Shown here in pieces: positions 1,987 to 56,447 of a DNA stretch of 64,000 nt; positions within the stretch are counted from its first letter, which is position 1; every line of letters starts with the position of its first letter. The stretch is from NCBI GenBank assembly GCA_008933995.1, contig WARS01000010.1:9217001-9281000 (forward strand). The letters are read 5' to 3'. The notes below the pieces were generated by a model. The model did not search any database and was not told the DNA's origin. It saw only the letters and a program-made list of their open reading frames with translations. Both the position numbers and the translations under genes were made by a program. This stretch comes from Datnioides undecimradiatus. Lineage: Eukaryota > Chordata > Actinopteri > Lobotiformes > Datnioididae.

Positions 1987-33940
<31,954 letters not shown>

Positions 33941-41180: not shown

Positions 41181-42561
<1,381 letters not shown>

Positions 42562-50753: not shown

Positions 50754-53325
50754 ATGGCTGGAAGGAGGAGGACCAGCTTCTCTGGTGTGTTCATCACAAC
50801 CCTGCTGGCTGTGATGCTGCTGCCTGGTGAGTAATGGATTTGATAAAACGTGTTCCTATGAGAGTTACAGTTGTAACGATGGAGCAAATCTGAAGTATTT
50901 AATATATTATTGGGAAATTTAATTTAGTTCAGTTAATCAAACTAATGTTTGATTAACTGAATAATTGTTTTTAGACTGATTGATTCAGCTCTACTTTAGT
51001 TTACAACAACATATTTCACATTTACACTTAATTCGTGTAGTAATTAGTTAAAGCTGTTTAATAAATGTAGTAAAGCAAAGGGAATAATATTCTCCTCTGA
51101 AATGCAGTGGAGTAGAAATAGACGGGGACATATTCGGCATGGAAATACTCAAGTAAAGTAAAAGTGCACCTCAGAGCTGCAAAGTATTTGTTGGACTGTT
51201 ACACACCACTGCTAAAATGTTTTGATTAGAGTCGAAAACTAAGACACAAAACACTTCTTAGTATTTAAAGTACAAGTACTTTAATAAGATGTACTTAGTT
51301 ACATTCCACCACTGATTAGCCTCCAAAACTCAGCAGTAGAAGAAAACAAAGAAGCAACACTGAGGTTTCAATTCTGAATGAATGGACGGAGGCACATTAA
51401 ATAAGCACGTTACATAAGAATCACTGATGGTTTGATGAAAAATGTCAGCTTCTCTTTTCTTAAAGGACCATAATTTAGAGCCTGTACTTCAACACAATCC
51501 CAAAAATGCTCAGGTCATTTTGTGGGCATTGAATTATGAATAGAAAGCTCAATTTAGTTCCACGTTCATAAAAACCACAAAACTATGTTAAACCTGGTGG
51601 AAAGATAATGGTTCTCGCTAACCAGTTCTCATGTTGAATGATGTTGATTGAGCTATTCATGCCACAGTTTTCTGTCCCTTATTCCAAGTCTTAAGCCTCT
51701 GACATCAGTACAAAGCAGAAAGCAGAGTACTGTGAGCAATATATTCTTAAAGTATCAAGTGTTAAGCAGCAGAATACCTTGTTTCAGGATTATTATTACA
51801 CGTTATGCTGAAGCAGGTTGAAGTAAATGTAAATGTTATTTACTGTAAGATACTTTGTAATACAGATTACATTTTATAAGCATATCATTGTGTGTGTAAA
51901 ATACAATATTTGCTTTGGAAATGTAGTGGAGCATAGAAGTATAAAGTAGCCAGTAAATATACACCCTGCCCCTCATTTGTGATCTACAGAAATATTTACT
52001 CATCATTCATAGTTTCTTTGTTTTTGTTTCCATTCCTTTAAAACTGCCAGTAAATAAATTCTACTGGAGTTACAGCTTCACAATCTATATTTCAAGGTTT
52101 TCTTTGTTAAGGTTAAGGGTTAGATGGTCTGCTTAGAGTCCGTGCCCTTCGCCAGTTCATGGACATGGGCTCAACTGTGCTTCTTTTATATCATAATGCG
52201 TCTCTCAGCCTGCGGTGTCCATATATCATCTGTAATGCTGCAACGTGAGGACAGGTTGCTCGTCCAACACCTGTTTCCAGTTTGCTCTCAACATGACTGA
52301 CATATTTACAAAGGGACAAGGGCTTATCTTTCCTTTAAAATGGTTTTTAAAATTGCACCTTGGGTTTAAAGGAGGGGGGATTAACAGGGGGGAGGAGGAG
52401 ATTCTTTCATCGTTTCTGGTCCTGTAAAAAATGAGTACCTGTCAGCATCACCTCCTCCTCTGCCCTCTTAAAGCTCTGCTGTTTCCAGATGTGCCAGCTA
52501 GTTTTTTTTTTGGTTTTTTTTTTTTACAGGCTCGTAAAAACCATTACAGCGGATACACTGAGACAGCATCATTTAGCCCACCCTCCTCCTCGGGTCACCT
52601 TCACCTTCTTCATCTGCCTTTAGTTCTGGTTTTCCTCTGCAAATTCATGCCTCTGCTTGTTAGCCTTCATCTTTGACCTTACACGCCACAACGCACATCA
52701 CATACGCTAAAACTACCTTTTTTAATCGGGAGACTTACGTCTTCCCACTTCCAACACGCGTCACATAACCTGAACCTTGCGTTACCCCCCCCGGATCTCT
52801 CTTTTAAACCTGTTGTCTGTTCCCTTCTTACATGTCCTCTTCCTCTTCCTCTCCTTCTGTAAGGCATTAACACCTTTTCCCTGTGGAGATGAAAGAAACC
52901 TGGAACAGAGCTGAATCCGCCATTTCCCTCAGCTGCATGGGGTCAAACAGTGCACATACGTACACATATGAGACGCACACAGTTGCACACACAGCTCTTT
53001 GTAGATTTTATAGGTGAGCCTGTAACATCAAACCACATGCTGGGTTTTCAAAGAGCTGCAGTTGCCAGCGCTTCAGGCAAAGCCCATTACCCCTGTCCTA
53101 TTTAATGAATAATATCTGCCTGTCAGTATTTCAGATTCAATGCCATGTATTTTCACAATTTCCACAATTGAATGTTAACCTCAGCAGCTTCTGGATTTTA
53201 CATCTGTTTTTGCTTTTCTCTGTGTTTGCAGCATTCTTGTCTGCTGGACCAGTTGTGAAAAAGCCAAAAGGAAATGGTAACTATACGATTTTCATAGTAT
53301 GACATTGGTGTTTGTTTCTAGAAAG

Positions 53326-53356
<31 letters not shown>

Positions 53357-56300
53357 ATTTTGCTCGGGGTAAGAGATCACCAAAGCTGGGAAACAACCTT
53401 TTAATGAAAGAATAACACTGAAATTCATCAGAGCACGTCACCTCGCTGCTCGCTTCAGTGTACCGTCAACACTGTGGTCAATATCTAATGTGATATAGCT
53501 GCAATTTTCTTGACAGGTAAAAACAGTCGGGGCTGAATAATGTCCAACCCCCAAATAAAACAAGTTTGAGGCCTTGAATATCCTGTTCTAAACTTTTAAA
53601 GTCATGAGAGAGTCTTTGCGGTGTCTACCATCTTTTCTTTTCTGGCTCCAGCAGGACAAAGTATCCAGGAGAGGGCGGCTGCAGCTGAGTTACACAGGAA
53701 GCTGATCCGCAACCGCAGGAACATCAGCTGGTACAAACAGCACTCTGACTTCTGGGGCTGGTATAAGTACTTCACTGACAATGGCAACCAGGAGGCAGTA
53801 AGTAAACACACCCACAAGAAATAAAACATTGTTTTTTATTTCTAAATTTACTGCTTCAAAAAAAGTCACAATCATAAATCCATGTACTGACTCATGATAA
53901 ATGGTACTGTTGCTCCATGTGTAAATAGTAGAGCTGATATTATCCCACGAAATTCATTCATCACTGATATACTGGTGTCAGTGTATATGTTCCTGATATA
54001 AGATGTCAACCATCATATCTGTTCTGAGTTTTTCTCGCTCTAATACTTTTTTTTTTAAATCCTGTATTGTTCAGGCTCTAGTGAATAGACAACTGACTGC
54101 CAACATGTTACCCATATCAGCTTCATAATATGGTAATATGAGTGTTGGGAGCAGTGGTGTAAACAAAGGTCTTGAGACTAAAACCACTCTAACCTCATAA
54201 TCCAATTCTCCACTGTCCATCTGTACTCTCAGTTGTCATCAGCAGTTAGATTTCCTGTTGTTAAAGCTTAAATTTAGGTTGGTTACAGCTGAATACAACA
54301 ATGCTGACTACAGCTGCTCTGTTTTGTCTTTCCTCCTGTGACCATGCGTCATCTGAACCAGCTCACCAATAATCTTCTCTTCCCCTTTCAGGTTCAGGAG
54401 ATGGACCGCATCTACCTGGCCTACCTCCAGAACAAGAACCGTGCTGAGGGACGCCGCTCCTACAAGGCCTACTTGCGCCACCTGGGGGAGGTCTACAAGT
54501 CCTGTGCTGATTCTGATGACCCCAACTGCGTGGCCTCCTACACCACCAGGCCTAAACCTAAACCAGAGCCCCCCAAACCTGCACCAGTGAAAACCTGTGA
54601 CCCTACCAAGGACCCCTACTGCCTATATGCTGCTTTGGTCCAGGGCAAGAGCCCCTATTTGCCCCTGGTACTGCCAGCTGCCACCCCTGCCCCAGCACCA
54701 GTGAAGGCCCCAGCTCCTCTTTATGTCCGCTCTGCTGCTCCAGCCAAAGACCCACAGTCAGGGTATTACTACTATGCTCCATCTGCAGTGCCTTTCCTTT
54801 CCAAGGTATGTTGCTCAGAGCTCTTGTCAATATTACTATAGAGATTTTAGGGTTTTATATTGATGATCATCAGTCTACCTGCTCTCATGCAGTCTGTTGT
54901 ATCTGTAAATAAGATACAAGTATATCTTATTTAAAAGCCACAATGTGTAGGATTTTTAGAAAATTGTGGACTTGATATGACATGACATCAAGGTACCATA
55001 TCTGCCTCTGTTTGTCATGCTGCTTCAGGAGCAGAAGGCCGAGCTGCTGCGTATCTGCTCTAATGACGACGTTGAGTGTCTGCAGTACCACTTGAGAGCT
55101 GCTCACGGGTATGCACCCTCTGCTGGACCTCTGCCTTCCTATGCTCACCTTGGCTGTGACCCCAAGAAAGATCCCACCTGCAAACCCAAATTGGTGCAGA
55201 AAGCCCCCTCTGGTCTTTACCTGCAGTACCCCAACTGTGATCCACTCCGGGATCCCCTCTGTGCCTATGCTGCCTCTCTTGTGGTATGCTTTGTTTATTA
55301 TCATGATGTGTTTTTAAAAATGTAACAAAAACACATTTTAATATATGTTCCTGGTTTTTATATTTACATTTGCATCAGTGCCTTGTTTACTTGACACCAT
55401 GGCTTATGGTGTTTCTACTGTCATGTGTTCCTCCAGGCACCCCATGCCCCTAACCCCCCCGCCCCTGCTGGCCCTGGATCCTGCAATCCTCTTTTTGAAG
55501 ATGGCTGCAACCCTCTTACAGCCACCAGATTTGCCACTCCCCCTGAGGCGTACAAAAATGGGGACAGTGATGAGGCTGCTGCCATTCGTGCTGCCCCTCC
55601 TCCTGCTGAGCAGAACAATGACCCCTATGCCATGTTTAGGGATGCTTATGCTAACAGAGTTTCTGATCCCTATGCTATGTACCGCCAAGCAAGTGCTCCA
55701 GCTTCTCCTCCAGCCAATGACCCATTTGCCATCCTGCGCAGATACATGGCCCAAGCTCAAGGTAATGACCCATACGCTCCACACATGGAGGCTGCTCCAG
55801 AGTCTAACCCCAATGATCCTTTCTCTGCAATCCGTGAGGCAGCGGCTGCCATGCATCGCCATGGTCCCCACGCCCCAAGGCAACAGTACCCTTTTGCCAA
55901 TCCCAATTATGAAGAGCCTGCACAGGAAAGGCACCACCCTCTTGGCCCCCCAGGTAAAACCAAGGAGGGCTATGACTGCTTCATCGGCTACGATCGTGAA
56001 TGCTACCCTGTGAAGCCCAATGAACCACGCTCTGGAGTTCACCGCCGCATCCCCTATCCTGCTGAAGCCTATGAACCCCACCTAAATGCTGATGGCACCC
56101 GAAATGGAGTCCTGGAGCCTGAAAACCCACACTGTGATCCTGAGCACGACCCTGACTGCCGTCTGCGTCGCTACGAGCCAGAGCAGACTCATGTAGAGGC
56201 TCAACCAAGCCATCACGCTGAGGAGGACCACAACCAGGGAGCGGCTGAGACCGAGCAGCACCCGGAGCAGGAACAGGATCTGTATGAGGCAGAGCCCTAC

Positions 56301-56447
56301 CAGAGTGGCCAGGAGGAGCCTCACATGTCCTACCAGCCCTTCTCACAGGGTATGCCCAGCCTCCAGGATATACTGAGGCGCTATGGAGACCAGCAGCCTG
56401 AGCAGGATGATCACAGAGCCTATGCAGACGACTACCGCAAAAAATAA
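50754..56447 (+). CDS. and: Actinodin (actinotrichia structural protein)
   Basis: Actinodins are secreted, noncollagenous parts of actinotrichia, the stiff fibrils of the fish fin fold, described in zebrafish and reported lost in tetrapods. Exons 50754-50826, 53232-53276, 53652-53797, 54392-54805, 55029-55283 and 55437-56447 total 1944 bases, 647 residues. Order: signal peptide with hydrophobic core FITTLLAVMLLP (13-24); a family block rich in Trp and Tyr (WYKQHSDFWGWYKYF, 66-80, then MDRIYLAYLQNKNRAEGRRS, 92-111); a proline-rich part with eight cysteine pairs of the CDPxxDPxC kind; five DPYA-type repeats (372-441); a charged Glu/His/Gln-rich tail. It is the last gene before 7 kb with nothing recognised. 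The paralogue (and1, and2 and so on) cannot be settled by eye. Confidence 0.9.
50827..53231. other. actinodin intron 1 (after signal-peptide exon), 2.4 kb
   Basis: AT-rich. Family B repeat pieces occur at about 51040-51316. T-runs sit at about 52502-52527 and CT-rich stretches at about 52560-52860. No exon was recognised. In zebrafish, fin-fold regulatory elements of and1 lie close to its promoter, so this intron is a reasonable place to look; nothing specific is visible. Confidence 0.5.
51040..51316. repeat. Teleost dispersed repeat, family B
   Basis: Contains AAATGCAGTGGAGTAGAAAT, AAATACTCAAGTAAAGTAAA and ATGTACTTAGTTACATTCCACCACTG in element order. Confidence 0.6.
53326..53353. repeat. 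(CA)n microsatellite in actinodin intron 2
   Basis: About 14 CA units shortly after the exon 2 donor. Confidence 0.9.
53652..53797 (+). CDS. and: actinodin exon 3, family signature, tandem acceptor
   Basis: Encodes GQSIQERAAAAELHRKLIRN followed by the signature WYKQHSDFWGWYKYF. The acceptor is CTCCAGCAG, a NAGNAG site. Use of the first AG gives an extra Ala before Gly-Gln; use of the second (exon from 53655) gives one residue fewer. Both keep the frame. Confidence 0.88.
53798..54391. other. actinodin intron 3, 0.6 kb
   Basis: AT-rich, nothing recognised; acceptor CCCCTTTCAG. Confidence 0.6.
55437..56447 (+). CDS. and: actinodin last exon, repeat and acidic tail
   Basis: 336 codons and a TAA stop at 56445-56447. 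It holds cysteine pairs 327/335, 492/500 and 544/552, five DPYA/DPFA/DPFS repeats spaced 15-18 residues, a PLGPPGKTKEGYD segment and an E/Q/H-rich end. A long antisense open frame (55404-56081) is a shadow. Confidence 0.9.
   Translation, partial: APHAPNPPAPAGPGSCNPLFEDGCNPLTATRFATPPEAYKNGDSDEAAAIRAAPPPAEQNNDPYAMFRDAYANRVSDPYAMYRQASAPASPPANDPFAILRRYMAQAQGNDPYAPHMEAAPESNPNDPFSAIREAAAAMHRHGPHAPRQQYPFANPNYEEPAQERHHPLGPPGKTKEGYDCFIGYDRECYPVKPNEPRSGVHRRIPYPAEAYEPHLNADGTRNGVLEPENPHCDPEHDPDCRLRRYEPEQTHVEAQPSHHAEEDHNQGAAETEQHPEQEQDLYEAEPYQSGQEEPHMSYQPFSQGMPSLQDILRRYGDQQPEQDDHRAYADDYRKK

Follow-up and report, generated by a model that had tools for sequence, protein, structure and literature searches.

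Actinodins are fin-fibre proteins that were lost with the fins in tetrapods, and otospiralin and augurin, the small secreted proteins with which they are compared here, are still found in tetrapods, humans included. In zebrafish, And1 and And2 are reported to be located in the actinotrichia and needed for their synthesis, and and1/and2 double mutants lack actinotrichia (PMC13120675). Biscotti et al. (2016, PMC4764851) described the motif C(N/D)PXXDPXC as a hallmark of actinodins. And3 and And4 have been described as having 'fewer functionally important structural repeats' than And1 and And2, in a 2026 zebrafish paper citing Zhang et al. 2010 (PMC13120675), and a partial lungfish actinodin transcript has 11 loops (PMC4764851). 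The present analysis concerns a 64,000-nucleotide stretch of the 581 Mb genome of the fish Datnioides undecimradiatus (contig WARS01000010.1, positions 9,217,001 to 9,281,000; the window), in which the gene at 50754-56447 is, judged from its predicted product, actinodin1, an ordinary fish fin-fibre gene encoding a non-collagen protein of the actinotrichia. Its paired-cysteine repeat is real but already known, since the motif had been published as an actinodin hallmark; the pairs probably close as small disulfide loops, and the N-terminal domain is likely to be related to otospiralin and augurin.

Paired cysteines of actinodin1

Six predicted coding exons, joined by script, encode a protein of 646 amino acids. 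A protein search returned 345 homologues, the nearest coming from ray-finned fishes; among the 120 listed, on which the actinodin1 counts below rest, most named rows are actinodin1, and the other named rows bear automatic labels, e.g. 'COPII coat assembly protein sec16-like'. The best identities to the listed actinodin1 homologues are 88-90%, reaching 90% over 100% of the query, and similarity to annotated actinodin1 extends over the full length of the window protein. A PDB sequence search gave a best match of only E 0.75. The last fifteen residues, EQDDHRAYADDYRKK, are identical to the platyfish And1 C-terminal antibody peptide (PMC9946992). In its repeat, C-terminus and full-length similarity the protein agrees with the actinodin family (And1-4), and nothing essential differs.

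The protein contains 16 cysteines in eight pairs, at residues 125/133, 156/164, 235/242, 268/276, 295/303, 326/334, 491/499 and 543/551 of the 646-residue form, seven of them C-x7-C and one C-x6-C, as had been proposed from the letters of the window alone (the sequence-only reading). The residue numbers given in that reading were higher by one, an offset explained by the CAGCAG (NAGNAG) acceptor of exon 3, at 53649-53654, which can add one Ala codon; the annotated Siniperca orthologue agrees with the one-codon-longer form. The loops were located from the sequence and the alignment, and loops 2, 4, 5 and 8 also by a genome motif search:

54503-54529, + strand: loop 1, CADSDDPNC (x7)
54596-54622, + strand: loop 2, CDPTKDPYC (x7)
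55056-55079, + strand: loop 3, CSNDDVEC (x6)
55155-55181, + strand: loop 4, CDPKKDPTC (x7)
55236-55262, + strand: loop 5, CDPLRDPLC (x7 here)
55482-55508, + strand: loop 6, CNPLFEDGC (x7)
55977-56003, + strand: loop 7, CFIGYDREC (x7)
56133-56159, + strand: loop 8, CDPEHDPDC (x7)

Exactly four of the eight pairs (loops 2, 4, 5 and 8) read CDPxxDPxC, and the claim that most of them do was too strong. The others (loops 1, 3, 6 and 7) are variants off the published consensus, and the pattern here is a looser C-x6/7-C with Asp, Glu or Asn (D/E/N) three residues before the second cysteine (position -3). When 16 cysteines were placed at random 200,000 times, seven equal neighbour separations never occurred and the best result, six, occurred once; a chance origin of the spacing is rejected by this permutation. 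The cysteine-free middle of the protein (55509-55976, residues 335-490) contains five [NS]DP[YF] repeats, which resemble half a loop without its cysteine, and the number of DP[YF]A copies there ranges from 0 to 12 among the 120 orthologues. The stretch itself is between 80 and 313 residues long in the 116 of 121 aligned rows that were used.

When 121 actinodin1 rows are aligned, each of the 16 cysteine columns is retained in 120 or 121. Spacing is x7 in every row for loops 2, 7 and 8 and x6 in every row for loop 3; loop 1 is x7 in 120 rows and x8 in one, loop 4 is x7 in 118 and x6 in three, loop 5 is x7 in 82 and x6 in 38 with one pair broken, and loop 6 is x7 in 120 with one pair broken. The broken pairs, in P0091 and P0117, look in our judgement like gene-model faults. 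Pairing is fixed, but the spacing of seven is not invariant in actinodin1: the alignment that had been suggested as a check revealed no free variation, and it also revealed the x6 form throughout loop 3 and in about a third of the rows of loop 5.

Across 120 actinodin1 rows, 1,922 of 1,960 cysteines lie within x6 or x7 pairs, as do 738 of 903 in 120 actinodin3/4 rows. The unpaired cysteines number 38 and 165, respectively, with 31 and 138 of them in the first 35 residues. The window protein itself has no cysteine in the signal peptide or N-terminal domain, as had been stated of it; among the 120 listed orthologues, 27 do have cysteines within their first 35 residues, and these cysteines total 35. 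Three further actinodin loci in the same genome, one And2-like and two And3/4-like, carry such loops, counted by eye as 10 in the first and as 3 and 4 in the others, and actinodin1 of Syngnathus acus has 11 loops by way of a repeated block of three. Constant pairing, combined with these whole-unit differences between paralogues and in an orthologue, favours bonds within the loops.

Probable intraloop disulfides and alternative roles of the loops

The preferred reading, to which we assign a probability of about 0.75, is that small intraloop disulfides fix Asp/Asn-Pro turns along the disordered chain of an actinotrichia protein. Each C-x6/7-C unit would close upon itself into an 8- or 9-residue disulfide loop, the turn being fixed by Asp/Asn-Pro after the first cysteine in most loops and by the acidic residue three before the second; eight such knots would be set along a probably disordered chain rich in Pro, Ala and Tyr. 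More speculatively, the knots may be stiff points at which collagen docks or stacks in elastoidin, and the chain may be freed by cleavage at an RNRR motif ahead of the N-terminal domain. The sequence-only reading had suggested small independent disulfide loops; the retained pairing and the differences by whole units agree with this, and from them we infer oxidation within each loop. The longest linker ranges from 80 to 313 residues, and no loop varies by more than one residue (116 of the 121 rows; P0086, P0091, P0113, P0116 and P0117 were omitted as odd), and D/E/N occupies position -3 in 1300 of 1322 loops beyond residue 35 (240 actinodin1 and actinodin3/4 rows). Whole-unit differences, this near-fixed acidic position and the toggling between x6 and x7 make the loop a defined module for peptide chemists.

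Several observations weigh against intraloop bonds. The lengths of three linkers are almost as constant as those of the loops (modal fractions 0.97, 0.96 and 0.91), and fixed spacing alone is therefore no proof of such bonds. Mean identity in actinodin1 is 0.833 for the non-cysteine loop residues, modestly above the 0.773 of the linkers and below the 0.928 of the N-terminal domain, which is the best conserved part measured. In actinodin3/4, 27 of the unpaired cysteines lie beyond residue 35, and an AlphaFold2 model of an actinodin3 has no order around the loops (predicted local distance difference test, pLDDT, about 54-65 by block; mean 57). The bonds may instead be interchain, or the thiols free for cross-linking. 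In the literature on actinodin, actinotrichia or elastoidin that was covered, which is partial and no proof of absence, the sole passage on cysteine concerns a residue added to a peptide (PMC9946992).

Among the alternatives, the one that survives best is that interchain disulfides cross-link actinodins into an insoluble elastoidin mesh, with the fixed spacing merely putting two cross-link points together. It would suit structural constituents of a stiff fibre that is absent in the and1/and2 double mutants (PMC13120675), and the lengths of some linkers are no less constant than those of the loops; however, paralogues differ in their loops by whole pairs, and pair spacing is constant across very different linker lengths. 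The cross-link nodes envisaged in the sequence-only reading are ranked below intraloop bonds and appear unlikely. Such disulfide rings of 8 or 9 residues form readily, which also counts against interchain cross-linking.

Binding of calcium or another metal at nodes of paired Asp is highly improbable: four of the eight loops (CDPxxDPxC) do have two Asp and D/E/N at -3 is nearly universal, but loops 6 and 7 lack the first Asp, the D-x-D-x-D-G pattern of calcium loops of the EF-hand or TSP3 type was sought among the eight window loops and found in none, and among 240 x7 loops of actinodin3/4, 40% have Asn and 8% have His at -3. The earlier idea that the Asp pairs would suit calcium is unsupported, since not all loops have two Asp and the common element is a single D/E/N at -3.

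The N-terminal domain, otospiralin and augurin

The actinodin N-terminal domain is likely to be related to otospiralin and augurin. No paper linking augurin with otospiralin, ecrg4 with actinodin, otospiralin with actinodin or augurin with actinodin was found in the literature searched, which included few subscription papers. Databases already hint at an actinodin-augurin relation through a Pfam label on some actinodin3 rows, PF15187 being a precomputed domain on 21 of the 120 listed actinodin3/4 rows. The domain lies in the gene as follows:

50754-50826, + strand: coding exon 1 (start codon, signal peptide), predicted; ATG, GT donor, in-frame join to exon 2
53232-53276, + strand: coding exon 2 (propeptide), predicted; AG/GT boundaries, in-frame joins
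53655-53797, + strand: coding exon 3 (propeptide end, R-x-R-R motif, start of N-terminal domain), predicted; phase-1 start, phase-0 end
53708-53719, + strand: RNRR furin-type cleavage motif (residues 58-61), from sequence and orthologue conservation
53729-53797, + strand: first part (W65-A87) of the 34-residue core resembling otospiralin and augurin, from Pfam, profile comparison and core alignment
54392-54805, + strand: coding exon 4 (remaining N-terminal domain, loops 1 and 2), script splicing
55029-55283, + strand: coding exon 5 (loops 3-5), script splicing
55437-56447, + strand: coding exon 6 and stop codon (loops 6-8, cysteine-free stretch, C-terminal tail), script splicing

The window protein matches the Pfam models weakly, Augurin (PF15187) with E 0.0047 (17.5 bits whole, 19.6 bits domain) and otospiralin (PF15182) with E 0.07 (13.5 bits whole, 17.4 bits domain), in both cases below the 27-bit gathering score. 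Taken singly, the And1 N-terminal domain gives E 0.0011 for Augurin and 0.0042 for otospiralin, that of And4 gives E 0.0037 for Augurin, that of And3 gives E 0.019 for otospiralin and 0.041 for Augurin, and the isolated And2 domain matches neither model. When the 120 listed actinodin3/4 proteins were scanned singly at E<=0.01, 106 matched Augurin, most weakly and some above the cut-off (best 3.2e-8), and two matched otospiralin. At the same threshold, one of 54 rows in the actinodin1 set (53 of the 120 listed proteins and one 24-residue fragment) matched Augurin and three matched otospiralin.

Profiles were built from 103 of 120 And1 rows, 87 of 120 And3/4 rows and 101 of 120 otospiralin rows plus the genome's own, with augurin as a single sequence. 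The hhalign probabilities were 93.9 for And1-otospiralin, 90.3 for And3-augurin, 38.8 for And3-otospiralin and 22.9 for And1-augurin; direct comparison of otospiralin with augurin gave nothing (0.43). In each of the four actinodin comparisons, the observed score was above those of all 60 column shuffles. The score exceeded the shuffle maximum widely for And1-otospiralin (44.65 vs 20.67) and And3-augurin (37.17 vs 19.83), by a smaller margin for And3-otospiralin (24.34 vs 17.99), and narrowly for And1-augurin (23.26 vs 21.86); for actinodin1, profile similarity to otospiralin goes beyond composition. Over the 34 ungapped core residues, And1 has 11 identities to otospiralin, just one fewer than the 12 to And3, and 9 to augurin. 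In AlphaFold2 models of actinodin3 and otospiralin alike, the Trp is followed, with modest confidence, by two helices (55-64 and 67-103 in actinodin3; 60-73 and 76-96 in otospiralin, mean pLDDT 66).

Otospiralin shares with actinodin the Trp followed by SDFW..Y..YF...G and the phase-1 acceptor upstream, but it ends after the domain (89 residues here), has no cysteine loops and lacks the phase-0 core intron, its domain in the window being uninterrupted in one exon. Augurin (ECRG4) has a propeptide, a furin-type motif, a W-x5-D core and introns of the same phase and places as in actinodin; it is a short secreted peptide precursor without cysteine loops, whereas actinodin has a long Pro-rich extension containing them. 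We know of no structural role for augurin. According to predicted splice sites, a phase-0 intron in the core is common to And1, And2, And3, And4 and augurin, its distance from the core Trp being exactly 23 residues, the Trp included, in all but And2, where it has the same phase and aligned place. The phase-1 acceptor lies upstream in all seven genes, both otospiralins included. The yardstick to which the actinodin1 intron conforms is the augurin gene of the same genome and not a published family criterion.

R-x-[KR]-R precedes the core Trp in all 113 listed actinodin1 rows that have the core and in 110 of 119 such actinodin3/4 rows, and it is present in the augurin of the same genome. It occurs in 27 of 28 otospiralin-like rows, in none of 80 true otospiralin rows and in 5 of 12 rows fitting neither pattern. 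The narrower R-x-R-R form is found in all 113 actinodin1 relatives. The RNRR of actinodin1 suggests a propeptide cut, one not described in the passages of the literature consulted; human augurin has a putative furin-like site at residues 68-71 (PMC10088197).

Otospiralin, COPS9 and actinodin1 lie in that order on one strand, with otospiralin about 8 kb upstream of actinodin1:

41181-42561, + strand: otospiralin gene of three predicted coding exons, the last (42374-42561) containing the domain; PF15182, 131 bits
43485-47658, + strand: COPS9 (MYEOV2) gene, three predicted exons, between otospiralin and actinodin1; PF15004, 115 bits

This arrangement parallels a pair on contig C468 (L018/L019), where an otospiralin-like exon lies about 6 kb ahead of the first augurin exon found, on the same strand; the augurin signal-peptide exon was not located. 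Compared by eye, actinodin1 and true otospiralin are on sequence records of equal size, taken as the same contig, in 12 of 14 species, Salvelinus alpinus and Oryzias melastigma being the exceptions; in Merluccius polli the shared contig is only 154,567 bases. Among the species compared, otospiralin-like rows never matched the actinodin1 record size. Two actinodin1 models (P0021 and P0113) include the COPS9 domain PF15004. A search of 30 kb around each of actinodin2, 3 and 4 revealed no convincing otospiralin exon.

We consider it probable that actinodins arose from the small secreted-protein family of otospiralin and augurin by way of a duplicated gene pair, and that they are made as furin-cut pro-proteins. 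An ancestral pair of neighbouring genes would have been duplicated, one copy giving rise to otospiralin and actinodin and another to otospiralin-like and augurin, and the actinodin copy would have gained its Pro-rich tail of cysteine loops. Cleavage by furin at R-x-[KR]-R would leave the augurin-like domain as a new N-terminus, which could nucleate or bind collagen fibres, and actinodins may be fibre-building offshoots of this family. If the link is true, a gene family whose loss is tied to the fin-to-limb transition would be traceable to hormone-like secreted proteins, and furin processing of actinodins is predicted.

That the likeness reflects convergence of short aromatic amphipathic helices, and not common descent, seems rather improbable. 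Convergence would fit a region of only 34 residues, the few actinodin1 rows passing E<=0.01, the isolated And2 domain that matches neither family, the true otospiralins without the cleavage motif and the narrow excess of And1-augurin over its shuffles; the window protein's scores below both Pfam cut-offs and the empty comparison of otospiralin with augurin likewise weigh against descent. It is opposed by the wide And1-otospiralin and And3-augurin scores, by an intron identical in place and phase to that of augurin, by otospiralin as a near neighbour of actinodin1 and by the Augurin matches of most listed actinodin3/4 proteins.

Motif matches elsewhere and a further open frame

The genome-wide motif search returned 15 places, four of them within the window actinodin1; the three actinodin paralogues account for two on contig C9, one on C477 (7176355) and one on C482. 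The And2-like paralogue (L009, contig C9) has CDPRFDPYC and CHPFDPSC, which are without counterpart in actinodin1. Matches at C477:510906 (L010) and on C480 (L012) were rejected, there being no actinodin neighbourhood at either, and three on C65 were judged by their letters to be simple repeat; the remaining two are on C334. Within the window, an open frame on the + strand at 24468-24938 encodes a PH domain (PF15410, E 1.4e-12).

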